A stretch of DNA of 40,875 nucleotides. Source: Desulfobacteraceae bacterium (lineage in GTDB: Bacteria > Desulfobacterota > Desulfobacteria > Desulfobacterales > ETH-SRB1). The notes beneath the pieces are model-generated. The model was not told the origin of the DNA and ran no database searches. It saw only the letters and a program-made list of their open reading frames with translations. The stretch is taken from NCBI GenBank assembly GCA_030593145.1, contig JAUVHU010000013.1:1-40875 (forward strand), given 5' to 3'. Of the stretch, positions 6,872-33,465 are shown one piece after another. Every line of letters begins with the position of its first letter. The first letter of the stretch is position 1. A program made the translations under genes and the position numbers.

Positions 6872-7312
6872 TTGAACAAGATACTTGTACCTTTGGATAA
6901 TTTTTCTGAGATATCGCTTAATGCAGCTCGCTATGCTGTTGAATTCGCCAAAAGAAGCAGTTCTAAGCCAATTTTTCTTTTCTTATCTATAAACGATGAT
7001 GCCAGGTCGGATTGTCTTGTAACAAACCTTTCGCAAGCAAAGGAGAAAGAAAAGAAAATAAGGGAAAAAATAGAGTCGCTTATAGACCGAAGTGCTCTGG
7101 AAGGAATCAATATTGAACAGTACGAGTGTCGTGGTGAATACATTGAAAAGGTCTGCGAGTTTGCACGAGATTTGAGCATAGCTGAGATCGTGATTGCCGT
7201 TCCTGATAAAAAGGACAAGCATTATAAAAAAATAAAGAAAAATATATCTTTGCTGGTTCAGATGACGTCATGCCGTATATTGACTGTAAAGGAAAAAGAG
7301 AAAGAAAATTAA
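6872..7312 (+). CDS. Universal stress protein-like (UspA fold), TTG start
   Basis: NKILVPLDNFSEISLNAARYAVEFAKRSSSKPIFLFLSI...IAEIVIAVPDKK...LVQMTSCRILTVK is a USP-like pattern. Confidence 0.7.
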   Translation: MNKILVPLDNFSEISLNAARYAVEFAKRSSSKPIFLFLSINDDARSDCLVTNLSQAKEKEKKIREKIESLIDRSALEGINIEQYECRGEYIEKVCEFARDLSIAEIVIAVPDKKDKHYKKIKKNISLLVQMTSCRILTVKEKEKEN

Positions 7313-7505: not shown

Positions 7506-9320
7506 ATGGAAGCTAATGCGTTAACAACAGAAATGATGTTAGTTATGTTTATGATTGGAGTGGCGGTATTCCTTTTTATCGTCGAATGGATTCGCGTTGA
7601 TATGGTAGCTATACTAATGACGGTTACACTTCCTTTGCTTCATTTAGTTACACCTAAAGAAGCGTTTTCCGGTTTTAGCAGCAACGCGGTTATTTCCATC
7701 ATTGCGGTTATTATCATAGGCGCCGGCCTTGACAAAACCGGCCTCATAAACAGGCTGGTTAAGCCTGTTATGAAGGTAGCCGGCAACAGTTCATCGCGTG
7801 TTGTTATAGCAATGGGCGCCACTGTAGCTGTAATTTCAAGTTTTATGCAGAACATCGGCGCTGCAGCTCTTTTTCTCCCCGCTATTAAGCGCGTGAGCAA
7901 AGCAATGAACATATCGCTTTCCCAGATGCTAATGCCTATTGGTTTTTGTGCAATTCTGGGGGGAACTATAACCCTGGTTGGATGCAGTCCGTTGATTCTT
8001 CTCAACGATTTACTGGCGCCCTTTAATCTTGAACCCTTCGGCCTTTTTGATGTATCACCTATCGGTCTGGCGCTGGTCGGATCTGGAATCGTATTCTTCA
8101 TTTTTTTCGGACGATTTGTGCTGCCTAAAGGAAAAGTTGGTGATAGTGGTTCTTCTGCTGAATCTATAGGTTTAGAAAGTTCCTACGAACATCTTGGTGA
8201 TCCTTTTGAATTAAAGGTGCCTGATGATTTCACCGATTTCAGAGATCCTTTGACGATCAAAGATTTACGGGAAGAATATCTGGTAAATGTTGTTGCAATT
8301 GCAGGCAGGGACGGTTTTAAGCTGCTTTCCGTTGATCAAGACATGGAAATAAGGTCTGATGTTGATATCGTTGTTTACGGACTGCAGAAAAATGTCGAGA
8401 AAATGGCCAAAGAACTTGGCATAACCATTAAAGATTCATTGGATGTATTCCAAAATGAAATGTCTGAGGCACTATCCGGAACAATTGAGGCGGTTGTTGC
8501 ACCACGTTCCGATCTGATCGGCAAAACCCTCAAAAAAGCCAACTTCTGGGAACAGTTTCAGGTAAACCCCCTGGCGATTTACCGATCAGACAAAGCTTTT
8601 TATTCCGGATTGTCAGATTTTGTATTGCGCGCAGGTGATTCAATACTGCTTCAGGGAACATGGGAAAGGTTTAACATATTACAGAAAAGACACAATTTTA
8701 TTTTTTCAACCCCGGTAAGTGAAGTTCTCAAACCTGAGAAGGCTTTAATATCCGGTATTTGGCTGGCAGTGGCTCTCACAATGATAATTATATTCAAAAT
8801 CCAGTTGTCAGTAGCTCTTATGACCGGAGCCTTTGGAATGATTGTTTGCCGAGTTCTGACGATTGACGAAGCATACAAATCTGTTGACTGGCGAACGATT
8901 TTTCTTTTGGCCGGCCTGATACCCCTTGGCATTGCAACCGAGAAAAGCGGTACAGCAGCATGGATTGCCTACACTATTCTTAATTTAATAGGAGATGTTT
9001 CTCCTGTTGTGCTTTTAACGGCAATAGCAGTACTTTCCACATTCTTTACTCTGGTTATTTCGAACGTGGGCGCCACTGTACTTCTTGTGCCGCTTGTGGT
9101 TAATATGGCTATGGCAGCAGGAACTGATCCCAGAATGGCTGCACTTGTGGTAGGCCTGGCAACTTCTAATTCGTTTATGCTGCCGACACATCAGGTTAAT
9201 GCGCTTTATATGGGTCCCGGAAGATATAAAAGTATAGATTTTCTAAAAGCCGGCGGGTTTATGACTATATTATTTATAGTAGTATTAATCGGGATGCTTT
9301 ATCTGTTTTACGGTGTTTAA
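7506..9320 (+). CDS. SLC13/DASS-family permease with two RCK_C (TrkA-C) domains
   Basis: 604 aa; N- and C-terminal TM blocks flank two RCK_C-like segments (EEYLVNVVAIAGRDGFKLLSV..., LKKANFWEQFQVNPLAIYRSDK...LRAGDSILLQG); GATVLLVPLVVNMAMAAGTDP...SNSFMLPTHQVNALYMGPG. Confidence 0.88.
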   Translation: MEANALTTEMMLVMFMIGVAVFLFIVEWIRVDMVAILMTVTLPLLHLVTPKEAFSGFSSNAVISIIAVIIIGAGLDKTGLINRLVKPVMKVAGNSSSRVVIAMGATVAVISSFMQNIGAAALFLPAIKRVSKAMNISLSQMLMPIGFCAILGGTITLVGCSPLILLNDLLAPFNLEPFGLFDVSPIGLALVGSGIVFFIFFGRFVLPKGKVGDSGSSAESIGLESSYEHLGDPFELKVPDDFTDFRDPLTIKDLREEYLVNVVAIAGRDGFKLLSVDQDMEIRSDVDIVVYGLQKNVEKMAKELGITIKDSLDVFQNEMSEALSGTIEAVVAPRSDLIGKTLKKANFWEQFQVNPLAIYRSDKAFYSGLSDFVLRAGDSILLQGTWERFNILQKRHNFIFSTPVSEVLKPEKALISGIWLAVALTMIIIFKIQLSVALMTGAFGMIVCRVLTIDEAYKSVDWRTIFLLAGLIPLGIATEKSGTAAWIAYTILNLIGDVSPVVLLTAIAVLSTFFTLVISNVGATVLLVPLVVNMAMAAGTDPRMAALVVGLATSNSFMLPTHQVNALYMGPGRYKSIDFLKAGGFMTILFIVVLIGMLYLFYGV

Positions 9321-9379: not shown

Positions 9380-10213
9380 GTGTCCATTATAACAATTAGC
9401 GCGGGTTCTTACAGCAATGGAAGGCAAATAGCCAAAAGCGCCGCCAAAAGATTGAATTACGAGTATGTAGATAGTGAAAATATTTTACCACTGGTTTCCA
9501 AGGAATTCGGTGTTTCTGAATCAAAACTTATGCAAACTCTTAAGGAAGCACCATCAGGTGTTGGCATGTTTTCTAAGACTAAACCTGAATACATAATATT
9601 TATTGAGACTTTGATTGCAGAATATTTGTTAAAAAATAATATAGTATATTATGGAGTCGTCGGACTTCCACTTATCCAGGAAGTATCCCATGTTTGCAAA
9701 GTTCAGATTATTGCTGATTTAGAGGGCAGGATAAAAAACAAAGCAAAGCTGGATGGCGGATCTGAAGAAAAAGCACGTAAAGCAGTTATCAAGGAAGATA
9801 ATCAGCAAAAGAAATGGTCGGAAGCTGTTTACAATATAAACACTACAGATCCAAACTTATATGATCTGGTAATAAACATAGGACATATTAAAGATGATGA
9901 TTTTGAACATGCCCTTGAGACCATTATTAGTGCCGTAGAGCACAAGAAATTTCAGCCCATGACATATTCCTTAAGATGTATGAAAAATGTTGCGATGTCG
10001 TGTCGTGTTCGGACAACTCTGGCGGATATAGATTCAAAAATGCAGGTAAAATCCGATGAAGGAACTGTATATATATATACTAAAGCCGTTAAGAAAAAGG
10101 CACAGGATAAGGTATTAGAAATGAAACAAAAGGTAATGAGAATCGAAGAAGTCAAACATATTGAAGTTTTTATAGATTATGATTTGTTTGCAAAAGTTTC
10201 CCATGGGCAGTAG
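9380..10213 (+). CDS. Cytidylate kinase-like family protein with a C-terminal BON-like segment
   Basis: GTG start; MSIITISAGSYSNGRQIAKSAAKRLNYEYVDSENIL resembles Cmk-like proteins. The C-terminal CRVRTTLADIDSKMQVKSDEGTVYIYTKAVKKKAQDKVLEMKQKVMRIEEVKHIEV is BON-like (weak). Confidence 0.7.
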   Translation: MSIITISAGSYSNGRQIAKSAAKRLNYEYVDSENILPLVSKEFGVSESKLMQTLKEAPSGVGMFSKTKPEYIIFIETLIAEYLLKNNIVYYGVVGLPLIQEVSHVCKVQIIADLEGRIKNKAKLDGGSEEKARKAVIKEDNQQKKWSEAVYNINTTDPNLYDLVINIGHIKDDDFEHALETIISAVEHKKFQPMTYSLRCMKNVAMSCRVRTTLADIDSKMQVKSDEGTVYIYTKAVKKKAQDKVLEMKQKVMRIEEVKHIEVFIDYDLFAKVSHGQ

Positions 10214-14239: not shown

Positions 14240-14929
14240 CTAATGCTCCAGCCTCATGCCCCATCCTTCGAACATGAACATAATGCCAAAGCCGTACCAC
14301 AAAGTGTAAACCACATAGAAGATCAGAGAAAAGACTACAACACCGAGACGGTCGGTGATCTTCTGGGGTTGGATCCCGTAGTAATTATAAGACGTTTCAA
14401 CGGCCTTTTTCACCACTGAGGCGATTACCTTGGCCTCCGGAAACTTCGACTGCTTCTTTAAGTCCTTTTCCATAAAATGCAGCGCCGTATACCAGTTGAA
14501 AACAACCCGTTTCGCTTCATAGCCGTATTTGTCGGAAATTTCCTGTCCCTTGTTATAATACATAAGATCTGCATCGGCAAGACAGTTGTCCAGGATCTTG
14601 CTCAGATCGCCTGAGACTTTCAAGTCAGCGCCTGTTACTTCTACTGCGGCGCCACCCTTCTTAAATAAAGAGGCTGCCTGTAGCGCCTTTTCCTCGTTTG
14701 CCATGGTTATGGTTACGCTCACAGAAGTGCCGGCGAACTTGTCGGCTTCTTCTTTTACCTTTGGAATATAATAAGCAGAGCCTTTTGAAATAGAGTTATA
14801 CAAGGCATCAAGATATTCCAGACCATTCTTCTTACCTTCGAAAAGAGGTGAAAATATTAGTACCAGTACAACCACAAAGCTTAAGAGCATCGCGAATCCG
14901 CCGTAAAATTCTTTCTTATGCGCAATCAT
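14240..14929 (-). CDS. Conserved hypothetical membrane protein coupled to the TauE/SafE gene
   Basis: 229 aa, N- and C-terminal TM helices; its ATG overlaps the stop of the upstream TauE gene (14926-14929). Confidence 0.8.
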   Translation of the reverse strand: MIAHKKEFYGGFAMLLSFVVVLVLIFSPLFEGKKNGLEYLDALYNSISKGSAYYIPKVKEEADKFAGTSVSVTITMANEEKALQAASLFKKGGAAVEVTGADLKVSGDLSKILDNCLADADLMYYNKGQEISDKYGYEAKRVVFNWYTALHFMEKDLKKQSKFPEAKVIASVVKKAVETSYNYYGIQPQKITDRLGVVVFSLIFYVVYTLWYGFGIMFMFEGWGMRLEH

Positions 14930-16227
14930 GAACTCACCCCCTCTCCTTTAAGAACACCGATATTCTTAACAAATGTTCCGATCACCCAGACCGAAAACGC
15001 GCCTATAACAATAAAGAATGCCCAGACTCCGATAGTCTCCAGTATAGCGCCAAACCCCGGTGATATAGGAATAACATCCATAGCGCCCAACTTGGCCGGT
15101 AAAGCAAAAATACGATTTACAAAACCAGCCAGAACAGCCATGGCGTAAAAGCCGCGAATGGTGATTCCAGGCACGACCTTGGTAACCATTGCGCCGATCT
15201 GGATACCAACCAGAGACCCCAGGAGCATACCCATGGCCAAAGTGTAAAAAATAAATCCGTATACGGCGTACTGGGTTATAGCAGCATAACCGGCAGTAAA
15301 GATGATCTGGAAAATGTCGGTTCCCACTGTGGTCATGGACGAAACACCGAGGACATAGACAAATATGGGGAAGGTCAAAAAACCGCCGCCAACGCCCATA
15401 ATACCTGCCGCAAGTCCGACAAGCGCGCCGCTGGCAACTAAAAATACCCATGAGATTCCCCTGCCGCCAGGAACAAGGTCGGCGTCAAACTTGACAATGG
15501 GAGGTATTTTTACAGACTGGAGCTTTTTGGGAAGACCGCCCATCTCAGCCCCTTCTTCCTTTCCACCATGGACGTCTCCGCCAGCGCCCGGAGCCTTCCT
15601 TGCATTAAGAAAATCGAGCAAGGCATAGGTTCCCAGAAAACCGAGCATAAGGGAATAGACGGTCGTGATAAAAGCGTCGCTGAGCACCGGGTTGATCTCA
15701 TAAAGAACGCGGTTGATAAGCCCGCCGAAAGTAGCTCCCAAGATGGCCCCGATCAGGAAAACTACGGCAAGAGGTACTGACACATTGCCCAGCTTTCTAT
15801 GGATTACGCTACCCATGATCGCTTTCGCGAATATATGGAAAAGATCCGTTCCTACAGCCAGGATACCTTTGATGCCCGCACTCATCAGAGCCGGAGCAAT
15901 GATAAACCCGCCGCCTGCGCCAATACAGCCGGTGATCAGGCCCGCACCCATGCCGATAAGGATAGAGACAATAAATATCCCGGTAGTGTAAAAGGCCGGG
16001 CTGTAAGCCTTATGTCCCCCCAGCAGTTCAGGCAGGATGCCATTAACCTCTTCGGAAAGGTGCCCGGCAAAAGCGATGCTCCCGATGATAATCGGAATCA
16101 ACGACAGACCAAGTAAAATAAGCCGCTTACGATCATGAAGTATGGTATTTGATATGTCAAGTTCCCATTTTGCATGAGCTCTTGCGCCCATCATCATAAA
16201 TCGTCCCAACTCTTTCATAAAATTCAT
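14926..16227 (-). CDS. Sulfite exporter TauE/SafE-family permease
   Basis: 433 aa; GMGAGLITGCIGAGGGFIIAPALMSAGI...GLAAGIMGVGGGFLTFPIFVYVLGVSSMTTVGTDIFQIIFTA, the duplicated TauE/SafE motif. Confidence 0.92.
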   Translation of the reverse strand: MNFMKELGRFMMMGARAHAKWELDISNTILHDRKRLILLGLSLIPIIIGSIAFAGHLSEEVNGILPELLGGHKAYSPAFYTTGIFIVSILIGMGAGLITGCIGAGGGFIIAPALMSAGIKGILAVGTDLFHIFAKAIMGSVIHRKLGNVSVPLAVVFLIGAILGATFGGLINRVLYEINPVLSDAFITTVYSLMLGFLGTYALLDFLNARKAPGAGGDVHGGKEEGAEMGGLPKKLQSVKIPPIVKFDADLVPGGRGISWVFLVASGALVGLAAGIMGVGGGFLTFPIFVYVLGVSSMTTVGTDIFQIIFTAGYAAITQYAVYGFIFYTLAMGMLLGSLVGIQIGAMVTKVVPGITIRGFYAMAVLAGFVNRIFALPAKLGAMDVIPISPGFGAILETIGVWAFFIVIGAFSVWVIGTFVKNIGVLKGEGVSS

Positions 16228-16950: not shown

Positions 16951-18351
16951 TTACATATTTTCCTTAAGGGACTCGACATTGATGTTTTCATCTTTTATGA
17001 GGCGATGAAGATATTGTCTTTGCAGGCCTGCCCGCTCAGCAGCTCTGGAAATATTTCCATTGCTTTGCTTGAGGATTGATACAATATAACTCTGGTGAAA
17101 GGCCTTGATAACGTTTTCCTTGGCCTCCTTAAAGGGTATGTCATAAATATCCTGATCAAAAAGAAAATAGGGAGGTATATGAGACTTTTCGGGAAAAATA
17201 TCCGAGAGCTCAATGTGATCGGAACGGCAAAAGACAACGCCCCGTTCAATAACATTTTCCAGCTCTCTGACGTTTCCGCGCCACTTTTTGGCCATGAGTG
17301 CGGACATGGCTTCAGAGTCAATCCGGTGTATCTCTTTTTTGTTGAGCATTGTATGTTTTTCAAGAAAATGATGTGCCAGAATTGGAATATCCTCTTTTCT
17401 GTCACGAAGCGGGGGAAGCTGAAAATTAATTACGTTAAGACGGTAAAACAGGTCTTCTCGAAATCGCTTTTCCGCTATCAGTTTTGTCAGATCTTGATTT
17501 GTAGCAGCCAGAAATCGTATATCGACATGTTTTGTGGTCAATCCGCCTACAGGCTTGTACTCTGCCTCCTGCAAAAGTCGAAGCAGTTTTGCCTGCATCA
17601 CCATGTTTAGATCTCCGATTTCATCAAAGAAAAGAGTCCCTCCGTCTGCTTCTTCGACCAGGCCTTTTTTATCTTTCCATGCTCCGGTAAAGGCCCCTTT
17701 AACATGTCCAAAAAGTTCGCTTTCAATGATCTGTTCAGGCATGGCTGTGCAGTTAACCGTGATAAACGGATTGTTATTCCGGTGGCTGTGGTAATGAATA
17801 GCCATGGCCACAAGTTCTTTACCTGTGCCGCTTTCGCCGCAGATCAAGACCGTAGCGCTTGATTGCGCCACCTGTTCGATTCCTCTTAGAATCAACGTAA
17901 TGGCCTGGCTGAATCCGATAATGGAAGAGAACTTCTTTTGCTGTTTGAGGGAGTTGAGTAAGGCTTTATTTTCCTGAGTAAGACTCTGCAACTTCATTGC
18001 GTTGTTAATTGTCAGCAATATGCGTTCTTTACGAAAAGGTTTGGCAATATAGTCAAAGGCCCCTTTGCGGGTGGCTTCCACAGCAGTTTCAATAGTAGCA
18101 TAGGCAGTCATGACGACAACAACAGCGGTTGGTTGAATTTTTTTAGCCTGCTCAAGCAAAGCAATTCCATCCATCTTGGGCATTTTCAGGTCGGTGATTA
18201 TTAGATTAATTGGCTGGTTTTCCAGTATTTCAATTGCGTTCAAAGAATTATGCGTAGTTACTACATCATAATCGGTCTTTTCGGTTATAATCCTTGTCAA
18301 AAGGATCAGCATGTCTTTTTCATCATCTACGATCAAGATTTTTCCTGTCAT
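16951..18351 (-). CDS. NtrC-family sigma54-dependent response regulator
   Basis: Receiver KILIVDDEKDMLILL; GESGTGKELVAMAIHYHS, GAFTGA, FFDEIGDLNMVMQAKLLRLLQE; Fis-type HTH NGNISRAAERAGLQRQYLHRLIKD. Confidence 0.96.
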   Translation of the reverse strand: MTGKILIVDDEKDMLILLTRIITEKTDYDVVTTHNSLNAIEILENQPINLIITDLKMPKMDGIALLEQAKKIQPTAVVVVMTAYATIETAVEATRKGAFDYIAKPFRKERILLTINNAMKLQSLTQENKALLNSLKQQKKFSSIIGFSQAITLILRGIEQVAQSSATVLICGESGTGKELVAMAIHYHSHRNNNPFITVNCTAMPEQIIESELFGHVKGAFTGAWKDKKGLVEEADGGTLFFDEIGDLNMVMQAKLLRLLQEAEYKPVGGLTTKHVDIRFLAATNQDLTKLIAEKRFREDLFYRLNVINFQLPPLRDRKEDIPILAHHFLEKHTMLNKKEIHRIDSEAMSALMAKKWRGNVRELENVIERGVVFCRSDHIELSDIFPEKSHIPPYFLFDQDIYDIPFKEAKENVIKAFHQSYIVSILKQSNGNISRAAERAGLQRQYLHRLIKDENINVESLKENM

Positions 18352-19682
18352 GTCCTGTCTTCCTTTTTTGCCCTGAGCGCCAGTGTAAAAGTAGTTCCTC
18401 TATGTTTTTGAGATGTCTCTGCCGTGCTGCTTTCGCATGTAACAGTTCCTTTATATTTGCTTATAATACCGTGGCTCACAAAAAGTCCAAGACCTGTTCC
18501 TTCTCCCTCGCTCTTTGTTGTAAAAAACGGATCGAATATCTTGTCAATATACTCTTTTGGTATGCCATGCCCATTGTCACGAACTACTACAATTATTTTT
18601 TCCAGATCAGCATCTAACACAGTTTTGATCTCTAACCTGCCGTTTTGCCGCATAGCTGCCACAGCATTGTTAATGAGGTTTAATAATACCTGCTGCATTT
18701 GCCGCGAATCGCCTTCTACCATGGGAAGTTCGGAGGCCATATCCAGTCGAAGTTCAATATCATTCATCTGTAATGAATGATCGACCACATTAACGATATC
18801 CTTAATAGCCTCATTGATATCACAATGCACAGACTGACCTTCTCCCTGGCGTGCAAAGCTCAAAAGATTTTCCACCACCGCCTTGCAATGGAGGCCGTGG
18901 CGCTCAATAGTTTTCAGGTCCTGGTAGCTTTGACTGTTTTTGTCAACATTTTCCAGCAGGAGATCTGTAAACCCGAGTATAATCCCAAGAGGGTTGTTGA
19001 CCTCGTGCGCTACTCCTGCTGCCAGTGTTCCCATTGATGCAAGCTTTTCGGTGTTAACAAGCTGTTTTTCCAGCTTCTTGCTTTCTGTAATATCCCTGGC
19101 AATGCACATAACCGAAATTACATTGCCTTTCTCATCTTTGCGGGGCATAAAGTTAGCGCTAAGCCATATCTGGTATTCCCCTCTCTCTATCATAAACTCA
19201 TCCCGTATGCTTTTTCCAAACTGGAAGACCGATTTAATAAGCTTGAGTTGTTTTTCGGCAATTTCTTGTGAAAAAAGATTTGAAAGAGGCCGGTGTACAA
19301 ATTGCGAAGGAACTCCTCCAAAAAAAGCAGCGGTAAAGCTATTAAGAGATCGAAAGCATCCGGAGTCGTCTACTGTAAAAATAAAGTCTTCAGCGCTTTC
19401 CACCAAAATCCGGTATTTCTCCTTACATTGTTTGATTTCTTTCGATTGATCTGAAATTTGATTTTGAAAGCTGAGAAAACGCCATCGGCTATAACATAAA
19501 GCGCTTCCCATCCCTATAAATAAAGCAAAAATGCCCAGGCTTTGAAGCCAGACAAAGTTATTATGACCGGCATAGGGCAATCGCATGCCTGTCATTAGTG
19601 TCATAATAAAGCAGAACAGGCTGATACTCCAGGCAATTATCAGAACAGCTCTAATGCGTTTAAGTAGGTTTTGGAAATCCAT
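18348..19682 (-). CDS. PAS-domain sensor histidine kinase
   Basis: TM segments, PAS, LAAGVAHEVNNPLGIILGF, NLINNAVAAMRQNG, FDPFFTTKSEGEGTGLGLFVSHGII; overlaps the start of the downstream regulator gene by 4 bp. Confidence 0.95.
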   Translation of the reverse strand: MDFQNLLKRIRAVLIIAWSISLFCFIMTLMTGMRLPYAGHNNFVWLQSLGIFALFIGMGSALCYSRWRFLSFQNQISDQSKEIKQCKEKYRILVESAEDFIFTVDDSGCFRSLNSFTAAFFGGVPSQFVHRPLSNLFSQEIAEKQLKLIKSVFQFGKSIRDEFMIERGEYQIWLSANFMPRKDEKGNVISVMCIARDITESKKLEKQLVNTEKLASMGTLAAGVAHEVNNPLGIILGFTDLLLENVDKNSQSYQDLKTIERHGLHCKAVVENLLSFARQGEGQSVHCDINEAIKDIVNVVDHSLQMNDIELRLDMASELPMVEGDSRQMQQVLLNLINNAVAAMRQNGRLEIKTVLDADLEKIIVVVRDNGHGIPKEYIDKIFDPFFTTKSEGEGTGLGLFVSHGIISKYKGTVTCESSTAETSQKHRGTTFTLALRAKKEDRT

Positions 19683-20093: not shown

Positions 20094-22694
20094 ATGTTTG
20101 GATTAAAACGGTTTTTCAAAAAACTACTGAAAGATGATACCCAAAAGGTTGAGCAGAAGTTCTCAGTTGATACCGTTAGGAATACCTTTACAAACAGATA
20201 TTTGAATTTTAAGACTCTTCTAAATACAAATAACGAGGTATTGGAACTCATAACCGACATGGAACAAGCCTTTTCCGGAAACCGCACTTTCGGCATGTCC
20301 TTTATTCGGACGAACTGTACAGCAATTTCAGTCAATATATATAAAATTATCGATTGCTTAAATGAAATAGCAAATGATAAATATAAAGTACTTCCGGAAG
20401 TACTTGAAGGTATTCTTCCAAAAATCGACAGGGAATTACAGCAGAAAAAGTTAGAGTCCGGGGACGAATTAGTTCTTCCTCTTGAGAGCGTCGATAAAAC
20501 TATGGCTGACCTTGTTGGAGCCAAGATGGCAAATCTTGGCGAGGTTAAAAATGCTGTTGGGCTTTCTGTCCCCGAGGGTTTTGTCATTACGGCTGCGGCC
20601 TATGAGCGCTTTCTGGAATACGCCGGTCTGCAGGATGAGATTAACCGTCAGACTCAATCCCTCGATCCGGCCGATATTGCCCGGCTTCATGAAACCAGTT
20701 CCGCCATCCAAAATCTTATCATTAATACGCCCTGCCCCCCGGAACTTGAAGATGCCATTATGAAAGCATACACAAACTTAATAAAAAAAACAGGGCATGA
20801 TATTCATGTTTCCATGCGCAGCAGCGCTCTTGGAGAAGATACAAAGAATGCCTCTTTTGCCGGACAGTATCGTTCCATACTCAACGTGGGCAGGGAAAAC
20901 CTGATCCTTTCCTACAAGGAGATTATTGCCAGCAAATATTCGGTTCCTGCAATTTCCTATCGTTCAAACAGGGGATTTCGTGATGAAGATATTATTATGA
21001 GTGTCGGCTGTATGGCTATGGTCGAGGCAAAAGCCGGCGGCGTCATGTATTCTGCAGATCCCGGCAATATACGTAATGAGTGCATTATAATTAATGCTGC
21101 CTGGGGACTTGGCAAGTCGGTGGTGGATGGAAGTATGGCCCCGGACCTCTTTATTCTTTCCAAAGAAAATCCGAAAATTATATTGAAAAATAAAATCAGC
21201 GCTAAGAAACAGCAGCTTGTTCCCGGAGTTTCAGAAGGAATACATCTTGCGGATGTGGCCGGAGAACAGGCAAACAATCCGGCAATTACCAATGAGCAGT
21301 CTGCCCTGTTAGGTGCATTGGCTCTACGCCTGGAAAAACATTTTGGCGATCCCCAAGATATTGAATGGGCCTTTAAGCCGGACGGCAGCGTCTCGATCTT
21401 ACAGAGCCGACCGCTGATGGTGCTTGGCGAAAAACTGACAGAGATTCAAACAAAGGTTGACTCTGCTACGGTAATCCTGTCAGACGGTGTGACAGCCAGC
21501 CCGGGAGTGGCCAGTGGTCCTGCCTTTGTGGTTGAGACAACTGTAGATATGCTGCGGTTTCCTTCAGGAGCCGTACTTGTGACCAAAAATCCTCTGCCTC
21601 AATGGGCAGCGCTCTTAAATAGTGCTGTTGCCGTCATTACAGACAAAGGAGGCGTTACTGGTCACCTGGCGGCTGTGGCTCGAGAATTCAAGATTCCAGC
21701 TCTTGTTGGAACTTCAACTGCTACCAAACATATCCATAATGAAGACCTCGTTACAGTCGATGCGACCGGTCGCACAGTCTATGCCGGCAGAGCCGAATCC
21801 CTTCTTAAAAAGGCGGTTGAAAAGACAAGCTTGATAAAAGGAAGTCCTGTTCATAACACTCTTGGAAATGTCTTAAAATATATTGCACCGCTCAATCTTA
21901 CCGATCCGGATGCATCAAATTTTACACCTGAAGGATGCCGGACTATACACGACATTACCCGTTTCGCTCATGAGATGTCCCTGCAAGAGCTTTTTGGGTT
22001 CAAAAAGGATCCTTCTTTCCCGGAGCATTTAGCCAAAAGACTGGTTATTGATGTTCCTATGCAGTGGTGGATTATTGATCTAATTGGTGGTTGTAGAGAA
22101 GGAATTGAAGGGGATACGATAAAACTTAAAGATATAATATCCGATCCCATGCTGACCTTGTGGGAGGGGATAACAGCTATACCTTGGAAAGGTCCGCCTC
22201 CGATAGATACAAAAGGATTTTTTTCCGTCATGTATGGAGCGACATTAGACAGGAGTCTTGTCCCTGGTATGCCTTCACGTTATAATGAACGCAATTATCT
22301 TATAATATCCAAAAATTTTTGCCATCTCAGTTCACGATTCGGTTTTCATTTTTCGACTGTAGAAGCTTTTTTTGGCGAGAAAGTAGCGGAAAATTACATC
22401 TGTTTTAATTTTAACGGCGGAGCTGCTGATGATGCACGCAGGGCGCGAAGAGCTAATCTTATTAAATTGATTCTGGAAAAATTCGATTTTTGGGTTAAGA
22501 TCAAGGGCGATACGGTTTTTGCCCGGCTGGAGCGACAGGAAATACCCTTTTTAAAAGAAAGATTAAAGGTTCTCGGTCATCTTGTAATGCACACAAGACA
22601 GTTGGATATGGTCCTGTCCAACAACGGAAGAGTGAACAAATACCTGGAAGAAATGCTAAAAGAACTTTCTTCATTTGTGGATGTTGCCCAATGA
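20094..22694 (+). CDS. PEP synthase/PPDK-like protein: ATP-grasp + swivelling phospho-His domain + unusual C-terminal domain
   Basis: 866 aa; PPDK_N-like GAKMANLGEVKNAVGLSVPEGFVIT...HVSMRSSALGEDTKNASFAGQYRSILNV...DIEWAFKPDGSVSILQSRPL; PEP-utilizer mobile domain GGVTGHLAAVAREFKIPALVGT. The C-terminus does not read as the PEP/pyruvate TIM barrel. Confidence 0.88.
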   Translation: MFGLKRFFKKLLKDDTQKVEQKFSVDTVRNTFTNRYLNFKTLLNTNNEVLELITDMEQAFSGNRTFGMSFIRTNCTAISVNIYKIIDCLNEIANDKYKVLPEVLEGILPKIDRELQQKKLESGDELVLPLESVDKTMADLVGAKMANLGEVKNAVGLSVPEGFVITAAAYERFLEYAGLQDEINRQTQSLDPADIARLHETSSAIQNLIINTPCPPELEDAIMKAYTNLIKKTGHDIHVSMRSSALGEDTKNASFAGQYRSILNVGRENLILSYKEIIASKYSVPAISYRSNRGFRDEDIIMSVGCMAMVEAKAGGVMYSADPGNIRNECIIINAAWGLGKSVVDGSMAPDLFILSKENPKIILKNKISAKKQQLVPGVSEGIHLADVAGEQANNPAITNEQSALLGALALRLEKHFGDPQDIEWAFKPDGSVSILQSRPLMVLGEKLTEIQTKVDSATVILSDGVTASPGVASGPAFVVETTVDMLRFPSGAVLVTKNPLPQWAALLNSAVAVITDKGGVTGHLAAVAREFKIPALVGTSTATKHIHNEDLVTVDATGRTVYAGRAESLLKKAVEKTSLIKGSPVHNTLGNVLKYIAPLNLTDPDASNFTPEGCRTIHDITRFAHEMSLQELFGFKKDPSFPEHLAKRLVIDVPMQWWIIDLIGGCREGIEGDTIKLKDIISDPMLTLWEGITAIPWKGPPPIDTKGFFSVMYGATLDRSLVPGMPSRYNERNYLIISKNFCHLSSRFGFHFSTVEAFFGEKVAENYICFNFNGGAADDARRARRANLIKLILEKFDFWVKIKGDTVFARLERQEIPFLKERLKVLGHLVMHTRQLDMVLSNNGRVNKYLEEMLKELSSFVDVAQ

Positions 22695-22764: not shown

Positions 22765-24531
22765 ATGACTCAGGAAAAGGAGTTACACAGATATTATGCC
22801 CGCTTGCGCGCAAAGTTCATAGCCATCATTTCTTTCATAGCTTTTATTCCATTAATACTTTTAGGCGGAACTACTTACTATCACTATAGCACTACGGTCA
22901 AGGAAAAGATAAGAAACGAATTAAAATTAGTAGCAAAAAACAGAAAAAGCACCATTGATCTTTTTCTAAATGACAGGGCTAACAGTTTAAGTGTTCTGGC
23001 TTATACGCACCGCTTTGACTTCTTGAAGAAAAAAGAAAACCTGCACAATGTTTTTCAGTCGTTAAAAATGGTTGACAGCGCCTTTCAGGATATGGGCGTG
23101 ATCAACAATAATGGTAAACAAGTTGCTTATATCGGGCCATATCACTTAACCGGCAAACAATACAGTGCGGCAAAATGGTTTAAGGCGGTTATGGAAAAAG
23201 ATATCTATATCAGTGATGTCTTTCTTGGTTTTAAAAAAGTTCCTCATTTTGTCATTGCCGTAAAAAGTATAGAAAATGGAAAGCCGTGGATATTGCGAAC
23301 GACCATAGACCTAAACATGATAAATCATTTTATGAGCACAGCCCTTCTGGATAAACACGGAGGTAACGCATATATCCTGAACAGAAAAGGTATCTATCAA
23401 ATAAGCACCACTGATCACAACATGATACTGACTAAATCCGAATTCAAAATGCCTTCCGTCTTTCGAGGCATACAAGAAACGGAAAAACGCCGGAAAGGCA
23501 AGGCTCTCTTTTGTGCCAGCGCCTGGTTAAAAAACAACGACTGGCTGATGGTAATCGAACAGGATTTAAAATATGAGCTGGGCACTATGGTTCGTGTTAA
23601 AAATACCATTCTTTTCATCTTTATAATCAGCTCCCTTATTATCATTATCAGCACCATTCTTATTACCACTCGGGTATTTGCAAGGCTGGAAAAAATCGAC
23701 AGAGAAAAATTGCAGCTTAGTGAGCAGCTTATTCGCTCTGACAGATTAGCGGCCATCGGTAAATTAGCAAGCGGTATCGCTCACGAAATCAACAATCCCC
23801 TGGCTGTTATCGCTGAAAAGGCCGGCTGGATAGAAGACCTGCTGACCGAAGAGGATGTAAAGAATAGCCCTAATTACAGTGAGTTGATCAAATCTACCGA
23901 GGATATCAAAAAACATGTTAAGCGGGGTAAGAAAGTCATCAGTCGTCTTATGGGGTTTGCCCGTAAGGAAGATATTGTGCATGAAAATATAGATATAAAC
24001 TCTGTTCTTGATGAAACACATGATTTCTTGAACAAAAAGGCAATGTTTCAGAATATAACCATAATGAAAGAATTCCAGGATAACTTGCCAAGTATAGTCA
24101 CTGACGGGGCGCAATTACAACAGGTCTTTATCAACATAGTAAATAATGCTATAGATGCGATTAATAAAGATGGCGTGATACGTCTCATTACAAAGGAGCA
24201 GGACAGGGGTGTTCTGGTTGCTATCACTAATACGGGGCCGGGCATACCGAAGGAAATTCAAGAAAAGATATTTGATCCGTTTTTTACGACTAAACCGGTC
24301 GGCAAGGGTACCGGCCTGGGACTTTCCACGAGTTATGATATAATTGAAAAATTAGGAGGCCAGCTTACGGTAGAAAGCGAAGTCGGCAAGAGTGCCGGCC
24401 TGGTACTTTCCACGAGTTATGGTATAATTGAAAAATTAGGAGGCCAGCTTAGAATGGAAAGCGAAGTCGGCAAGGGGACAACATTTTATATTACGCTGCC
24501 TCCTTCTTGTAAGCAGGAAACAAAAGTCTAA
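22765..24531 (+). CDS. Sensor histidine kinase with a Cache-like extracytoplasmic domain
   Basis: N-terminal TM, approximately 240-aa sensor region, second TM, LASGIAHEINNPLAVIAEKAGWIEDLL, NIVNNAIDAINKDG, GPGIPKEIQEKIFDPFFTTKPVGKGTGLGLSTSY. Confidence 0.94.
   Translation: MTQEKELHRYYARLRAKFIAIISFIAFIPLILLGGTTYYHYSTTVKEKIRNELKLVAKNRKSTIDLFLNDRANSLSVLAYTHRFDFLKKKENLHNVFQSLKMVDSAFQDMGVINNNGKQVAYIGPYHLTGKQYSAAKWFKAVMEKDIYISDVFLGFKKVPHFVIAVKSIENGKPWILRTTIDLNMINHFMSTALLDKHGGNAYILNRKGIYQISTTDHNMILTKSEFKMPSVFRGIQETEKRRKGKALFCASAWLKNNDWLMVIEQDLKYELGTMVRVKNTILFIFIISSLIIIISTILITTRVFARLEKIDREKLQLSEQLIRSDRLAAIGKLASGIAHEINNPLAVIAEKAGWIEDLLTEEDVKNSPNYSELIKSTEDIKKHVKRGKKVISRLMGFARKEDIVHENIDINSVLDETHDFLNKKAMFQNITIMKEFQDNLPSIVTDGAQLQQVFINIVNNAIDAINKDGVIRLITKEQDRGVLVAITNTGPGIPKEIQEKIFDPFFTTKPVGKGTGLGLSTSYDIIEKLGGQLTVESEVGKSAGLVLSTSYGIIEKLGGQLRMESEVGKGTTFYITLPPSCKQETKV
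24301..24468 (+). repeat. In-frame tandem duplication (2 x 84 bp) inside the kinase ATPase domain
   Basis: GKGTGLGLSTSYDIIEKLGGQLTVESEV followed by GKSAGLVLSTSYGIIEKLGGQLRMESEV; the nucleotides are nearly identical. Confidence 0.95.
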
Positions 24532-24662: not shown

Positions 24663-25064
24663 ATGCAGGAAATTCAGGTGCTGCTGGTCGATGACGAGGA
24701 TGACTTTAGAATAACTCTTGCTAAGAGGCTGAAATTAAGAAAGGTAAATGTCACGGATGTAGCAAGCGGCAACGAGGCTATAGAGCTGGTCAAACAAAAG
24801 TCTTTTGACGTAGCTGTTGTAGACGTTAAGATGCCGGGGATCGACGGTATTGAAACCTTGAAGCAGCTCAAGCAGATACAGCCGGCCATGGAGATCGTCA
24901 TGCTTACCGGACATGCCTCGATCGAGTCGGGCATGGAAGCCATGAAATTAGGCGCTTATGATTATGTAATGAAACCTTGTGATATCGACGAACTGCTTAT
25001 CAAAACCGGAGACGCTTTCCAACACAAACTGCTCAAGGAAAAAGAAAAAACAAGCGGCAATTAA
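24663..25064 (+). CDS. Response regulator receiver protein
   Basis: IQVLLVDDEDDFRITLAKRL...VVDVKMPGIDGIETLKQL...IVMLTGHASIESGMEAMKLGAYDYVMKPCDIDEL. Confidence 0.94.
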   Translation: MQEIQVLLVDDEDDFRITLAKRLKLRKVNVTDVASGNEAIELVKQKSFDVAVVDVKMPGIDGIETLKQLKQIQPAMEIVMLTGHASIESGMEAMKLGAYDYVMKPCDIDELLIKTGDAFQHKLLKEKEKTSGN

Positions 25065-25068
25065 CAGA

Positions 25069-25749
25069 TTATGACCATATCTCTCTTCTGTCCTCATCGT
25101 GATCTATCATATAAAGAAGAGTGGTCTTTGTTTTTAGAACTTCAATAAGTTCAGGAAACCTTGACCGGTCAACACCGTATGTGCGAATGTAAACATTGTG
25201 GCACCCTTCCGGCACCCGTTCATATGAACTCAAAATACTTGCAATACGGCCATCATATTCCCGGATAATATCGGCAATCTCCTTGATAGAGCCCGGCCGG
25301 TTTTTCAACTGAAGAGCAAACTGAACCCCTTTGTTACTAACTCCTGTCAGTGAAATTAATACTCTGAACAGATCTGTTTGAGTAATAGTCCCCACGACCT
25401 TATCATCATGGTCAACCACAGGAACGCCTGATATTCTATTTTTCAGAAGCACCCCGGCTGTCTCTTCCACAGTATAATCAAAAGGAACTGTGATAAGCCT
25501 TTTGGGCATAATCTCCTTTATCTTGACCGTGGACAGTATATAATTAAGCTCATGAACCGATAGCGTGGTAGCATCAGAGGCTGACGCCCTTTTTATATCC
25601 CTGTCGGTAATGACTCCGACAAGCTTATCTTTTTTCGTAACCGGCAGCATACGAATTTCATGTTTTTTCAAGAGGTTCATGGCATCATGAATGGATTCAT
25701 TTAAATCAATAGTGAAAACAGTTCTACTCATCCAGTTCTTAACTAACAC
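25069..25749 (-). CDS. CBS-pair + ACT domain protein (AcuB-like), paralog 1
   Basis: MLVKNWMSRTVFTIDLNESIHDAMNLLKKHEIRMLPVTKKDKLVGVITDRDIKRASASDA... two CBS; FALQLKNRPGSIKEIADIIREYDGRIASILSSYE is ACT-like. Confidence 0.9.
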   Translation of the reverse strand: MLVKNWMSRTVFTIDLNESIHDAMNLLKKHEIRMLPVTKKDKLVGVITDRDIKRASASDATTLSVHELNYILSTVKIKEIMPKRLITVPFDYTVEETAGVLLKNRISGVPVVDHDDKVVGTITQTDLFRVLISLTGVSNKGVQFALQLKNRPGSIKEIADIIREYDGRIASILSSYERVPEGCHNVYIRTYGVDRSRFPELIEVLKTKTTLLYMIDHDEDRREIWS

Positions 25750-25926: not shown

Positions 25927-26604
25927 CTAAAAAACCATCCTTTTCCTATCAATATGATCAATTATATAAAGCAGGGTGGCCTTTTCTCTGATCTCTTCAA
26001 TCAGCCTTTCAAGAGAGGGACGATCAATATCGATTATCCGGATAAAAACCTTGCGATGTCCATTAGGAACCTCATCATAAGAAGTCAGAATGCTCGACAC
26101 GCGGCTGCCATAGCTTCTGATAATATCTGTAATCTCCTTAAGTGTATGCGGCTTGTCAGTCAATTGAATGGCAAACTGGATACCCTTTTTCCCAAAACCG
26201 GTTAAGGAAAATATCACCCTGCATAGATCCGACAGGGTAATTATTCCCACCAGACCCCCTTCATGATCAACCACAGGCATACCTGATATTTTATTTAGCA
26301 AAATGATTTCGGCTGCTTCCTCTACGGTTAAATCAAAAGGAGCTGTATAGGGATCTCCGGTCATGATCTCCTTTATCTTAATTCCGCTAATTAATTCTTG
26401 TATAGCATGGGGTTCTAATGAGGCAGCACTTGAAGCCGATGCCCTTTTTACATCTCTGTCTGTCACCACCCCGACAAGCTTGTTTTTTTCCATAACCGGT
26501 AGCATGCGTATTTCGTGCTTTTCCAACAGCGCCTTAGCATCCTGCATGGTATCTTCTATATCGACTGTGATAACCGGCTTAGACATCCAATATCTTACAA
26601 GCAT
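25927..26604 (-). CDS. CBS-pair + ACT domain protein (AcuB-like), paralog 2
   Basis: MLVRYWMSKPVITVDIEDTMQDAKALLEKHEIRMLPVMEKNKLVGVVTDRDVKRASASSA...; alignable with 25069-25749 over its whole length. Confidence 0.9.
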   Translation of the reverse strand: MLVRYWMSKPVITVDIEDTMQDAKALLEKHEIRMLPVMEKNKLVGVVTDRDVKRASASSAASLEPHAIQELISGIKIKEIMTGDPYTAPFDLTVEEAAEIILLNKISGMPVVDHEGGLVGIITLSDLCRVIFSLTGFGKKGIQFAIQLTDKPHTLKEITDIIRSYGSRVSSILTSYDEVPNGHRKVFIRIIDIDRPSLERLIEEIREKATLLYIIDHIDRKRMVF

Positions 26605-26956: not shown

Positions 26957-28978
26957 TTACGAAACCGCCTCCAGAACAATTGCCGTCCGTGTCGGAAGAT
27001 ATAAACTGAGCAAATTTCTCTTCTCGCTCCCTGAAGCAGTAACATCGGTCAGATGAAATTGATCCGGCACCAACCTGCCATAGCCACCGTATTTGGCGGC
27101 ATCGGTGTCAAGGATCATCCTGTATTTCCCATGCGGCGCATCAAAACGGTAATTATCATGGGAGCAGGCTGGATGAAAATTGAACACAAACAGAAGTCTG
27201 CCTCGTTTAAATGCAATAACCTTATCATCTATATGTTCAAATAATAAATGCGGCCCCGGAAACTCTAAAAGCCTGTACTGTTTGGCCAGTGCAATCATAT
27301 CTCTGTCAAAACGGGCAATAAAATGATACTTCAGAGTTGTATCATCAACAAGGCTCCATTGACGCCGCGCATAAAAGTATGACCATGAATTTTCCTCGCG
27401 CGGAAAATCAATCCATTCAGGATGACCGAACTCGTTACCCATAAAGTTGAGATAACCGTTTCCCGCAGTACACATGGTAATAAACCGGATGAGCTTATGC
27501 AGAGCAATGCCCCTGTCAATAATGATATTTTCATCAGAAACACTCATATGGTCGTACATCTCCGAACCAATGAGCCGGAATATGAGAGTCTTATCGCCCA
27601 CGAGAGCCTGATCGTGGGATTCAGCATAACTTATGGTTTTTTCGTCAATTCTTCTGTTAGTCAGTTCATGCCACAAATGCCCCATATGCCAGCTCTCGTC
27701 ACACACTTCTTTTGTCAGCCTGATCCAGTAATCCGGAACACCCATTGCAAACCTGTAATCAAAACCGATCCCTCCATCTGATGATGAAACAGCCAGCCCC
27801 GGCATTCCGCTGATATCTTCCGCTATAGTAACCGCATCAGAACGCAATTCATGAATAAGCCGGTTAGCCAGAGATAGATATACAAGCGCTTCCTCATCAA
27901 CACTATCGTTAAAATAATCGTCATAAGAAGTAAATGCTGTTCCCAGTCCGTGGTGATAGTAAAGCATGCTGGTAATGCCGTCAAAACGGAACCCGTCAAT
28001 ACGATATTCGTCAAGCCAAAAGCGACAATTGGAAAGAAGAAAATGCAGGACCTGATGTTTTCCGTAATCAAAACAGCGAGAATCCCAGGCTTTGTGTAAT
28101 CCCCGCAGCCCATCGTGAAAATACTGGTATAGGGTACCATCAAAAAGGCTGATCCCTTCAACCTCATTTGAAACCGCATGGGAATGAACAATATCTATGA
28201 TCACTGTCAGGCCGGCCGCATGAGCTGTGTCCACCAGCTCCTTGAATTCTTCCGGCGTCCCGAATCTTGATGAAACGGCAAAAAAACTCGAAACATGGTA
28301 GCCAAAAGAACCGTAATAAGGATGTTCAGGGATTGCCATTAACTGCAAAGTATTATAACCGGCGGCTGCTATCCTTGGAATAATGCGTGCTGTAAATTCG
28401 TTGTAAGAACCGACCTTTTCCTCTTCCTGGGCCATGCCGACATGGGCTTCGTAAACAAACAGAGGTGTTTGCGCGGGCTGAAAATCGCTGCATTGCCAGC
28501 AATATGGTGAAGGAGGCAGCCAGACCTGAGCATTAAAAATTAGTGTTTTCGGATCCTGAACCACACGTCTTGCATATGCCGGTATCCGGTCACCCTCTCC
28601 GCCGGGCCAGTGTATGCGAAGCCGGTAAAGATCTCCATGTTCCAGCGTCTTTGAAGAAAGCCTGATTTCCCATACGCCTTCATTTCCAACAGGCTCCAGC
28701 TCAAACTCCTTTTTTTCCTGCCAGCCGGACATATCTCCGATCATATATATTGCACTTGCGTTGGGCGCCCATTCACGGAATATCCATTCGCTGCCGTTAA
28801 AATGAAGACCAAAATATTCGTGACCGGACGCAAATTCCGGCAGGCTCATTGTTCCACCGGTCAGCCTTTCCTCAGTTTCACGGATGCACTTTTGTCTGCT
28901 TCTAAGAATTTTTTCATACGGCCGCAGATATGGATCGGAATCAATAAATCGCTTTAATGGATCAACAGTTAGTTTCAT
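26957..28978 (-). CDS. glgB: 1,4-alpha-glucan branching enzyme, eukaryote-like (GH13_8-like)
   Basis: 673 aa; DPYLRPYEKILRSRQ..., GFRFDGITSMLYYHHGLG, TIAEDISGMPGL, NRRIDEKTISYAESHDQALVGDKT, GYLNFMGNEFGHPEWIDFPRE, YARRQWSL, FNFHPACSHDNYR. Confidence 0.93.
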   Translation of the reverse strand: MKLTVDPLKRFIDSDPYLRPYEKILRSRQKCIRETEERLTGGTMSLPEFASGHEYFGLHFNGSEWIFREWAPNASAIYMIGDMSGWQEKKEFELEPVGNEGVWEIRLSSKTLEHGDLYRLRIHWPGGEGDRIPAYARRVVQDPKTLIFNAQVWLPPSPYCWQCSDFQPAQTPLFVYEAHVGMAQEEEKVGSYNEFTARIIPRIAAAGYNTLQLMAIPEHPYYGSFGYHVSSFFAVSSRFGTPEEFKELVDTAHAAGLTVIIDIVHSHAVSNEVEGISLFDGTLYQYFHDGLRGLHKAWDSRCFDYGKHQVLHFLLSNCRFWLDEYRIDGFRFDGITSMLYYHHGLGTAFTSYDDYFNDSVDEEALVYLSLANRLIHELRSDAVTIAEDISGMPGLAVSSSDGGIGFDYRFAMGVPDYWIRLTKEVCDESWHMGHLWHELTNRRIDEKTISYAESHDQALVGDKTLIFRLIGSEMYDHMSVSDENIIIDRGIALHKLIRFITMCTAGNGYLNFMGNEFGHPEWIDFPREENSWSYFYARRQWSLVDDTTLKYHFIARFDRDMIALAKQYRLLEFPGPHLLFEHIDDKVIAFKRGRLLFVFNFHPACSHDNYRFDAPHGKYRMILDTDAAKYGGYGRLVPDQFHLTDVTASGSEKRNLLSLYLPTRTAIVLEAVS

Positions 28979-29007
28979 GTATAATTAAATTCAGACCTCC
29001 TGAGCTC

Positions 29008-30534
29008 TTAATCATTATTAATAAGAGGACGCAGCAGCATTTTTTCATATAGTTTAATATACCGGCTCGCTGTAACCGCATGGTTAAAACTCGCAAGACT
29101 CTGGTTCATAATCCGTTTTATCTGAAGCTCTTTTATTCCCAGAGGTAATTTATAAAAAAGCATGGCCTGTTCAATCGCCCAAAGCAGCCCCTCTGAATCA
29201 AACACATTAAAAAGAAAGCCATTACCCTTGTTATTATCAACATCCATGCGTACAATTGTATCGTGGATTCCTCCTGTATCATGAGCTACCGGAAGCGCTC
29301 CATAAATAGGACCTATCATCTGGGGAAGACCACATGGTTCAAAAAGTGAAGGCATGAGCACAAAATCAGACGCTCCATAGGCAATACGTGCCAGGCGCTC
29401 ATCAAAGTCGCATATAGCGACCCTGTTATACAGATTATGATGTCTTACAATATCTTCAAAATGTTTCCTAAACTCACCATTGGCCACAAAAACAATCTCT
29501 AGATTCTGGTCCCAATAGCGGGAAACAACCTCATAAAGAATTTCAGCTAATAACTGACAACCTTTTTGAATCATATCAAGACGGGAAGGCCAGAAAAATA
29601 AAGGCGCCCTGTTATCCTGAATAAGCCCTAATGACCGCTGTATAAAAAGCTTGTTGTTTTGTTTGTTTTCAACATGATTATCCGAGCCGTATTGAAACTT
29701 AATATCCCTGTCAATAACAGGATTAAAGGAAGGATCAGGAGCATTGAGTATCCCCGCAGCACATCCGGCATCCCATTTGTTAGATAGTTCCTGTTTTAAT
29801 GGTTGTTCAACAAAATTGTGCCTCCCTTCCACCAGTTCCATCAGAAAGGTCGGGCTTACGGTATTTACAAAGTGGGCGGCAAAAACCCCGCTGACCAAAA
29901 AATCCACAGGATTCGATTCCCGGGTTTCCTCATATTCAGATGCCATATTCTCGTAATAAAGGTTCTTCCAGAAGTATGCCGCATCTATACCTCTGTCTTC
30001 AATATAGGACAGTGGGCTTTTGACGGTATGAATATTATGAATTGTAAAAAGGCATGGAATATTAAGCTGTCTTGCCATTGCCGGAATAAGTCCTGTCATC
30101 CAGTCATTGCAATGAATCAGATCCGGCCGTACATGGGGAACAATATTGTTAATAACCTCCCGTTGAAAGGCAAGAGCTATCTTTATGTTTTCACCCCCAT
30201 AATTCGAGTAAACACGATTTAGATAATAAAAGGCTCTGTCTTCTGCAAGATGCACCCTCTCTTCAGGCATACTGCTCTGGAATGTGTTTCTTTCCTGCAT
30301 TAACAACGGCCACAGAGGCCCGATGTTGTCGCCGAATATAGCCCTGTAATCCGGAAGCGCCACATGAACGTCGGCACCCTGTTCAAACAGGGCGCTGATT
30401 AAGGCCGCTGAGACATCAGCAAGCCCTCCTGCCTTAGCCGTAAAATAATTTGCAAGGTTTCCCATGTCATTGGGCAGATAGGTGACTTCAGGGGTTACTA
30501 TAAGAATGCGGGGGTTTGGGGAAGAATATATCAT
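29008..30534 (-). CDS. glgA: Glycogen/starch synthase (GT5)
   Basis: ILIVTPEVTYL...KAGGLADVSAALISAL; LIHCNDWMTGLIPAMARQ; FTIHNIHT; DFVLMPSLFEPCGLPQMIGPIYGALPVAHDTGGIHDTI. Confidence 0.92.
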   Translation of the reverse strand: MIYSSPNPRILIVTPEVTYLPNDMGNLANYFTAKAGGLADVSAALISALFEQGADVHVALPDYRAIFGDNIGPLWPLLMQERNTFQSSMPEERVHLAEDRAFYYLNRVYSNYGGENIKIALAFQREVINNIVPHVRPDLIHCNDWMTGLIPAMARQLNIPCLFTIHNIHTVKSPLSYIEDRGIDAAYFWKNLYYENMASEYEETRESNPVDFLVSGVFAAHFVNTVSPTFLMELVEGRHNFVEQPLKQELSNKWDAGCAAGILNAPDPSFNPVIDRDIKFQYGSDNHVENKQNNKLFIQRSLGLIQDNRAPLFFWPSRLDMIQKGCQLLAEILYEVVSRYWDQNLEIVFVANGEFRKHFEDIVRHHNLYNRVAICDFDERLARIAYGASDFVLMPSLFEPCGLPQMIGPIYGALPVAHDTGGIHDTIVRMDVDNNKGNGFLFNVFDSEGLLWAIEQAMLFYKLPLGIKELQIKRIMNQSLASFNHAVTASRYIKLYEKMLLRPLINND

Positions 30535-30608
30535 GCTCCTTTGCTCCTAACCTTGATGACGTCGTAAAAAGTCATGTTCCAAGTTATTGCGAGGAGTGTA
30601 ATCATCTC

Positions 30609-30634
30609 GTTCCCATGTAGAAGCGTGGGAACGA
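30609..30634. repeat. Short perfect hairpin (cgttcccatg tagaag cgtgggaacg, one mismatch-free arm pair)
   Basis: cgttcccatgtagaagcgtgggaacg read directly in the glgA-glgP intergenic region. Confidence 0.6.
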
Positions 30635-30639
30635 AAAAA

Positions 30640-30771
30640 ATGAACGTCCAACATCGAACATCCAACGTCGAACATCGAATGACTGTACACCTTCGGTGTT
30701 TCAATTATATGATCTAATGGAGCGAAGCGATATCCTTATTCGATGTTCGATGTTGAGCGTTCGATGTTCAA
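30640..30771. repeat. Family C palindromic element, copy C2
   Basis: atgaacgtccaacatcgaacatccaacgtcgaacatcgaatga ... ttattcgatgttcgatgttgagcgttcgatgttcaa. Confidence 0.8.
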
Positions 30772-30807
30772 ATTGTTGCATCTGATATTTCACTCGACCA
30801 CTCGACT

Positions 30808-33357: not shown

Positions 33358-33465
33358 TATTTCATATCCTTTTTAAACTTAACTGCTTGAGTACCTTGCC
33401 ACAAAGACACCAAGGCCCTAAGATCATAAAATTATTATTCACTTCGTGCCTTAGTAGCTGAATAT

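Follow-up and report, generated by a model that had tools for sequence, protein, structure and literature searches.

A PEP-synthase-like dikinase family with a new C-terminal domain, encoded beside anion permeases and two-component genes mainly in bacteria with dissimilatory sulfite reductase

The window, that is the whole stretch of 40,875 nucleotides analysed here, comes from a Desulfobacteraceae bacterium (GenBank assembly GCA_030593145.1, contig JAUVHU010000013.1). Near its centre lies a gene encoding a dikinase-like protein. The following genes were identified at and around this locus:

6872..7312, plus strand: universal stress protein, recurrent neighbour in family loci
7506..9320, plus strand: SLC13/DASS-type anion symporter (CitMHS, Na_sulph_symp) with TrkA_C domains
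9380..10213, plus strand: cytidylate-kinase-like protein (CMPK cluster), recurring beside permeases and receivers
14240..14929, minus strand: MEM229, a small membrane protein of 229 aa and partner of the TauE permease, present in 59 of 117 family loci, no Pfam match
14926..16227, minus strand: TauE/SafE-type permease, 433 aa (Pfam PF01925, E 1.5e-34)
16951..18351, minus strand: NtrC-type sigma-54 response regulator
18348..19682, minus strand: PAS histidine kinase, oriented divergently to the dikinase
20094..22694, plus strand: dikinase-like protein, 866 aa, member of a family of more than 560 loci
22765..24531, plus strand: dCache histidine kinase of 588 aa, immediately following the dikinase gene (Pfam dCache_1, HisKA, HATPase_c)
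24663..25064, plus strand: stand-alone receiver-domain response regulator, 133 aa (Pfam Response_reg)
25069..25749, minus strand: protein with two CBS domains and weak ACT similarity (Pfam)
25927..26604, minus strand: second protein with two CBS domains, paralog of the preceding one (same cluster)

The TauE gene lies 3.9 kb from the dikinase gene, and no other member of the TauE family was detected in this assembly. The window carries a complete set of associated genes, comprising the SLC13 symporter, the TauE-MEM229 pair, two NtrC/kinase pairs, the dikinase, the dCache kinase with its receiver, and the two CBS proteins. A first reading of this DNA, made from the sequence only, had placed a Cache kinase and a receiver directly after the dikinase, and the Pfam matches identified them as the dCache kinase at 22765 and the stand-alone receiver at 24663. 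The ATPase domain of the histidine kinase at 22765-24531 contains a near-identical tandem duplication of 28 aa (84 bp; LGLSTSYDIIEKLGGQLTVESEVGKSAG / LVLSTSYGIIEKLGGQLRMESEVGKGTT) that is absent from the compared orthologs; this duplication could impair the kinase or could be an assembly artefact. At the left contig end, positions 1286-5683 correspond to rpoC (beta' subunit, with RNA polymerase Rpb1 domains), and positions 26957-38135 hold an ordinary glycogen operon encoding a branching enzyme, a glycogen synthase (assigned by sequence), a phosphorylase and a debranching enzyme.

Pfam searches and an AlphaFold model were used to delimit the parts of the 866-aa protein, all encoded on the plus strand:

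20094..20465, plus strand: N-terminal ~124 aa, three long helices (AlphaFold), family-specific, without Pfam match
20508..21455, plus strand: ATP-grasp nucleotide-binding domain (PPDK_N), residues 139-454 (Pfam E 2e-94)
21558..21767, plus strand: phospho-His swivelling domain (PEP-utilizers mobile domain), residues 489-558 (Pfam E 1e-19)
21663..21665, plus strand: codon of the predicted phospho-histidine H524 (GGVTGH), kept in 178 of 182 members
21819..22691, plus strand: new C-terminal domain, residues 576-866, without relatives in PDB, Pfam or NCBIfam
21948..21974, plus strand: HDxxRxxHE motif (H619, D620, R623, H626, E627), invariant, in helix 618-634 of the C-terminal domain

Beyond PPDK_N and the PEP-utilizers mobile domain, no further Pfam match was found in the protein. 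A helical stretch of about 130 aa had been noticed ahead of the ATP-grasp domain, and AlphaFold indeed predicted three long helices within residues 25-115 (25-61, 68-92 and 99-115). This N-terminus is weakly conserved, with 2 of 124 positions reaching 95% or more in the family alignment. In PEP synthase, pyruvate phosphate dikinase (PPDK) and rifampin phosphotransferase (RPH), the intact ATP-grasp and swivelling His domains convert ATP to AMP + Pi via a phospho-histidine. Both domains had been judged intact here, which was borne out by the Pfam matches and by six residues that are invariant in an alignment of 56 sequences (K144, R242, E424, Q437, R439 and H524) and that we take to be the equivalents of PPDK K22, R92, E323, Q335, R337 and H455. 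All six residues occur together in 171 of 182 family members, and about half of the 11 members without the full set are short or incomplete sequences. These conserved residues suggest that the protein is an ATP-dependent phosphotransferase that would act through a His524 intermediate.

Comparison with solved structures and profile models showed where this resemblance ends. The closest structures in a PDB sequence search were PEP synthases, over residues ~125-583, and Foldseek with the full-length model matched PEP synthase, RPH and PPDK, mainly via the first two domains. The NCBIfam models for PEP synthase and rifampin phosphotransferase align only up to about residue 577, and all score far below their cut-offs. 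Residues 576-866 gave no match in Pfam, in NCBIfam (56 sequences) or among PDB sequences. For this region AlphaFold confidently predicted a mixed alpha/beta fold that is not a barrel, the pLDDT being 86.5 for the full protein and 82 for the C-terminal domain alone (56-sequence alignment). Foldseek searches of the PDB with the C-terminal domain returned no relative (best E 0.03, TM about 0.1-0.2), and a viral fold library yielded nothing significant. The weak PDB look-alikes, YbjN and type III chaperone folds (prob about 0.5, TM about 0.2), were discounted. The sequence-only reading held that the last ~280 aa are not the usual barrel; the missing profile match, the non-barrel prediction and the lack of a PDB relative all agree with it, and a PEP-utilizer C barrel, looked for in the AlphaFold model and with Foldseek, was absent. 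Profile, PDB-sequence and fold searches likewise ruled out a degenerate PEP/pyruvate barrel, and they gave no profile or fold match to a substrate domain of the RPH or phenylphosphate synthase type. The first 577 residues do match PEP synthase best. Nevertheless, it is highly improbable that the protein is an ordinary PEP synthase or PPDK with a diverged barrel, given the predicted C-terminal fold, a score of 385.8 bits against the NCBIfam PEP_synth cut-off of 739.75, and the presence in the same genome of other proteins that resemble PEP synthase more closely (G000 C47 and C77) and that match the window protein over residues 122-580 only.

The protein was then set against the known dikinases that share parts of its architecture. 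PEP synthase (TIGR01418; PDB 2OLS, 8A8E) has the same succession of ATP-grasp and phospho-His domains (31% identity over 462 columns) but ends in the PEP/pyruvate barrel, whereas the window protein carries an unrelated domain in addition to its extra helical N-terminus. RPH (PDB 5FBS, 5HV1) also joins ATP-grasp (27-30% identity) and phospho-His domains to a substrate domain other than the PEP barrel. In RPH this substrate domain sits between the ATP-grasp and His domains, whereas in the window protein the phospho-His domain directly follows the ATP-grasp domain and the candidate substrate domain is C-terminal, with no sequence or fold match to that of RPH and a score of 243 bits against the NCBIfam cut-off of 999. 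The phenylphosphate synthase-type dikinases (L186-L188; HpeI, PDB 9GOJ) have a homologous ATP-grasp subunit and a phospho-His domain; those of L186-L188 consist of two proteins, with a C-terminal His domain and, by sequence, a UbiD-like carboxylase neighbour, whereas the window protein is a single chain. The family C-terminal profile did not match the L186-L188 subunits. PEP synthase, RPH and phenylphosphate synthase were each rejected as the identity of the protein, on domain order, barrel, cut-offs or chain number, and searches of Pfam, NCBIfam and the PDB found no characterised family of the same architecture. RPH and phenylphosphate synthase phosphorylate small-molecule substrates and, to our knowledge, this holds for the characterised relatives of the chassis in which the substrate domain has been replaced. 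By analogy, the C-terminal domain could bind and phosphorylate a metabolite, either an imported compound or a signal molecule, a possibility that we consider rather unlikely for reasons that emerge from the gene neighbourhoods below.

Within the C-terminal domain, 28 positions are conserved at 95% or more, including H619, D620, R623, H626, E627, H752, R786 and D838. Because of their spacing within helix 618-634, H619, R623 and H626 lie on one face of the helix. The eight residues named first form a polar invariant set that resembles an active site, which speaks for phosphorylation of a metabolite. Three Desulfovibrio-type loci (L141, L143 and L158) encode tandem pairs in which one member has lost K144, E424, Q437 and H524 and kept the C-terminal motif; judging from these residues, the decayed member is likely a pseudo-enzyme partner. 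That the motif is retained in paralogs with decayed ATP and His sites hints, more strongly than any other observation here, that the C-terminal domain forms an independent functional site.

To assess the distribution of the family, GTDB genome contigs were searched with a profile of the C-terminal domain, which confirmed at least 563 loci; the best 80 of these belong mostly to Desulfobacterota, with two from Nitrospirota. In the alignment used for the locus, genome, PDB-sequence and Pfam searches, the first 17 residues of one row were wrong, which left the structures, the residue counts and the Nitrospirota scan unaffected. Among 297 sampled genomes of Desulfobacterota, 107 encode the domain. 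DsrA scored above cut-off in 101 of these 107 carriers, compared with 41 of 190 non-carriers (odds ratio 61, for genomes that are phylogenetically non-independent), and a hand tally by GTDB family gave a dsrA table of 37/0 versus 13/43 (p 5e-15). Of the six carriers without DsrA, five have a completeness of 62-80% and the sixth is the assembly that contains the window (94% complete); dsrA is present in G001, a congener of the window's genome. In Nitrospirota, DsrA was detected in 35 of 39 carriers versus 29 of 109 non-carriers, and one carrier (L078, G423) gave no dsrA match. Since relatedness inflates the statistics within a phylum, the Nitrospirota serve as the better replication. In the sample, which covered Desulfobacterota and Nitrospirota, family members thus occur chiefly in genomes that encode dissimilatory sulfite reductase.

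Analysis of the gene environment revealed a recurrent order, HK - RR - (RR) - TauE - MEM229 - dikinase. In variant loci, the TauE-MEM229 pair is replaced by a DASS permease and CBS proteins, or by other TauE subtypes together with Alph_Pro_TM or other small membrane proteins. In four locus sets, a TauE, DASS or SLC13 permease was found within 5 kb of the family gene at 22/27, 36/43, 14/30 and 12/17 loci, and a kinase or receiver at 25/27, 41/43, 26/30 and 16/17; some family members have no permease within this distance. With about four TauE genes per relative genome, co-location with TauE would be expected by chance at ~1.5%, compared with the 13 of 27 observed. The linkage to kinase and receiver, which had been suggested as a check on the locus described here, is conserved in many family loci. 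The nearest receiver lies within 2.5 kb of the dikinase in 149 of 199 cases; most of these receivers are shorter than 200 aa (124 of 142), and the phospho-acceptor Asp is kept in 140 of 143. Genes encoding CBS, Usp and nucleotide-kinase-like proteins are also recurrent neighbours. From the domains and these neighbourhoods, we regard the family as genuine, widespread and coherent in function, with a known dikinase chassis joined to a new, putative acceptor domain. The receiver is the most constant partner of the dikinase and may be its acceptor or its regulator.

These neighbourhoods bear on the nature of the phosphoryl acceptor. Permease and dikinase genes commonly adjoin, which would suit phosphorylation of an imported metabolite, but the partner permeases vary (three TauE subtypes, DASS and SLC13) while the C-terminal site stays constant, and none of the neighbours found consistently is a metabolic enzyme. 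A constant site beside varying permease types favours a common protein or signal acceptor over the transported anion. The linkage to the receiver is also compatible with another arrangement, in which the receiver may regulate the dikinase instead of accepting its phosphoryl group. The dikinase would then be an effector, or an AMP-producing energy sensor read by CBS or Usp proteins, with water or phosphate as the acceptor. This would fit the adjoining receivers, which are output-less and phosphorylatable, and the recurrence of CBS, Usp and nucleotide-kinase-like neighbours, which belong to nucleotide-binding families. It leaves unexplained, however, a strongly conserved C-terminal domain that persists even in members whose ATP-grasp and His residues have gone, and we regard such an arrangement as distinctly unlikely.

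Genetic data come from a cluster involved in nitrate sensitivity in Desulfovibrio. Korte et al. (2014; PMC4001038) describe a D. vulgaris cluster (DVU0251-0245) encoding a TauE permease, a small protein, PtxB, a kinase, a receiver, a PPDK-like protein and a phosphatase. Insertions in DVU0251 (TauE), DVU0250, DVU0247 (receiver) and DVU0246 (PPDK-like) each conferred nitrate resistance, and growth of the four mutants at 100 mM nitrate was indistinguishable from nitrate-free growth. They had no advantage in nitrite, and a DVU0245 mutant remained nitrate-sensitive. Nitrate resistance on loss is reported there for both D. vulgaris and D. alaskensis, and the authors hypothesized that resistance results from the loss of a leaky uptake route, perhaps for thiosulfate (PMC4001038); a later paper refers to putative thiosulfate transporters (PMC9723548).

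We found the same gene order in L148 (TauE, small protein, Phosphonate-bd, kinase, receiver, dikinase and dual-specificity phosphatase) and parts of it at L175 and L178-L183. The dikinases of these loci align with the window protein in the N-terminus and in the ATP-grasp, His and C-terminal domains, at 28-33% identity over the full length. DVU0246 and Dde_0604 share with the window protein the PPDK_N and PEP-utilizers mobile domains and an operon with TauE, a histidine kinase and a stand-alone receiver. The nitrate cluster differs in its additional phosphonate-type binding protein and dual-specificity phosphatase and in its dikinases, which are ~31% identical to the window protein; DVU0246 is annotated with 744 aa, versus 866 aa in the window, and neither its mechanism nor its C-terminal domain is taken up in the passages of Korte et al. 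consulted. From gene order, domains and homologs, DVU0246 appears to be a divergent branch of the family. A polar effect in the DVU0246 mutant is unlikely, because the dikinase gene is second to last and the DVU0245 mutant is sensitive; the dikinase-like protein itself therefore appears to be needed for the permease phenotype. Beyond this cluster, we found no description of the family in the library searched, and a survey that compares the sulfate transporters of sulfate-reducing organisms mentions no dikinase. The tie of the family to anion uptake in sulfate reducers is strong, and it is unremarked in the literature searched.

A role in an oxyanion-uptake module of dissimilatory sulfate reducers is thus, in our view, quite probable. 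We see about an even chance for the fuller proposal, in which these PEP-synthase-like dikinases work within such modules and relay a phosphoryl group from His524 via the new domain to an accepting protein, and we hold the choice of a protein as acceptor with somewhat less than even confidence. In this proposal, a Cache or PAS histidine kinase would sense an outside signal and set the stand-alone receiver. ATP would be bound in the ATP-grasp domain, and the dikinase would phosphorylate its own His524 (ATP to AMP + Pi). The phosphoryl group would next be moved by the swivelling domain to the C-terminal domain, whose HDxxRxxHE site would hand it to a protein acceptor; the receiver and a TauE or DASS permease partner are the candidates. 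Such a transfer would switch anion uptake on or tune it to the energy state. In its most specific form, which we put forward tentatively, this would be a PTS-like, ATP-driven phosphorelay running from the dikinase through a new acceptor fold to receivers or permease partners and gating oxyanion uptake. The more general proposal of the sequence-only reading, a dikinase without the barrel and with another acceptor, possibly a protein or metabolite, in a signalling region, is supported by fold, searches and linkage alike.

The control of the uptake of sulfate and its analogues in sulfate reducers is poorly understood (PMC5840216, PMC9723548). Rates of sulfate reduction depend strongly on uptake, as does the resistance to nitrate and perchlorate, which are agents used against souring in oil wells (PMC5840216, PMC9723548). 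A dikinase family encoded beside permeases, largely in genomes with dissimilatory sulfite reductase from two phyla, is a testable candidate for this control. With this family, the dikinase chassis would reach further than PEP, antibiotics and phenols and, if the PTS-like reading is true, a previously unrecognised class of protein phosphotransferases would gate oxyanion uptake in sulfate reducers.

Members of unusual length were also observed. Two Nitrospirota members of about 1065 aa (L193 8257-11454 and L198 6832-10023) have an extra C-terminal domain of ~200 aa, which is weakly galactocerebrosidase-lectin-like and contains no receiver; with only this weak lectin-like domain added, these longer members were dropped as a clue to the acceptor. 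An ORF of 1833 aa in L152 was rejected as a true longer member, since it looks like upstream read-through of an open frame. In the nitrate-cluster group, L183 8262-10226 encodes a homolog of 654 aa that lacks the second half of the ATP-grasp domain and the phospho-His domain and keeps the N- and C-terminal regions.
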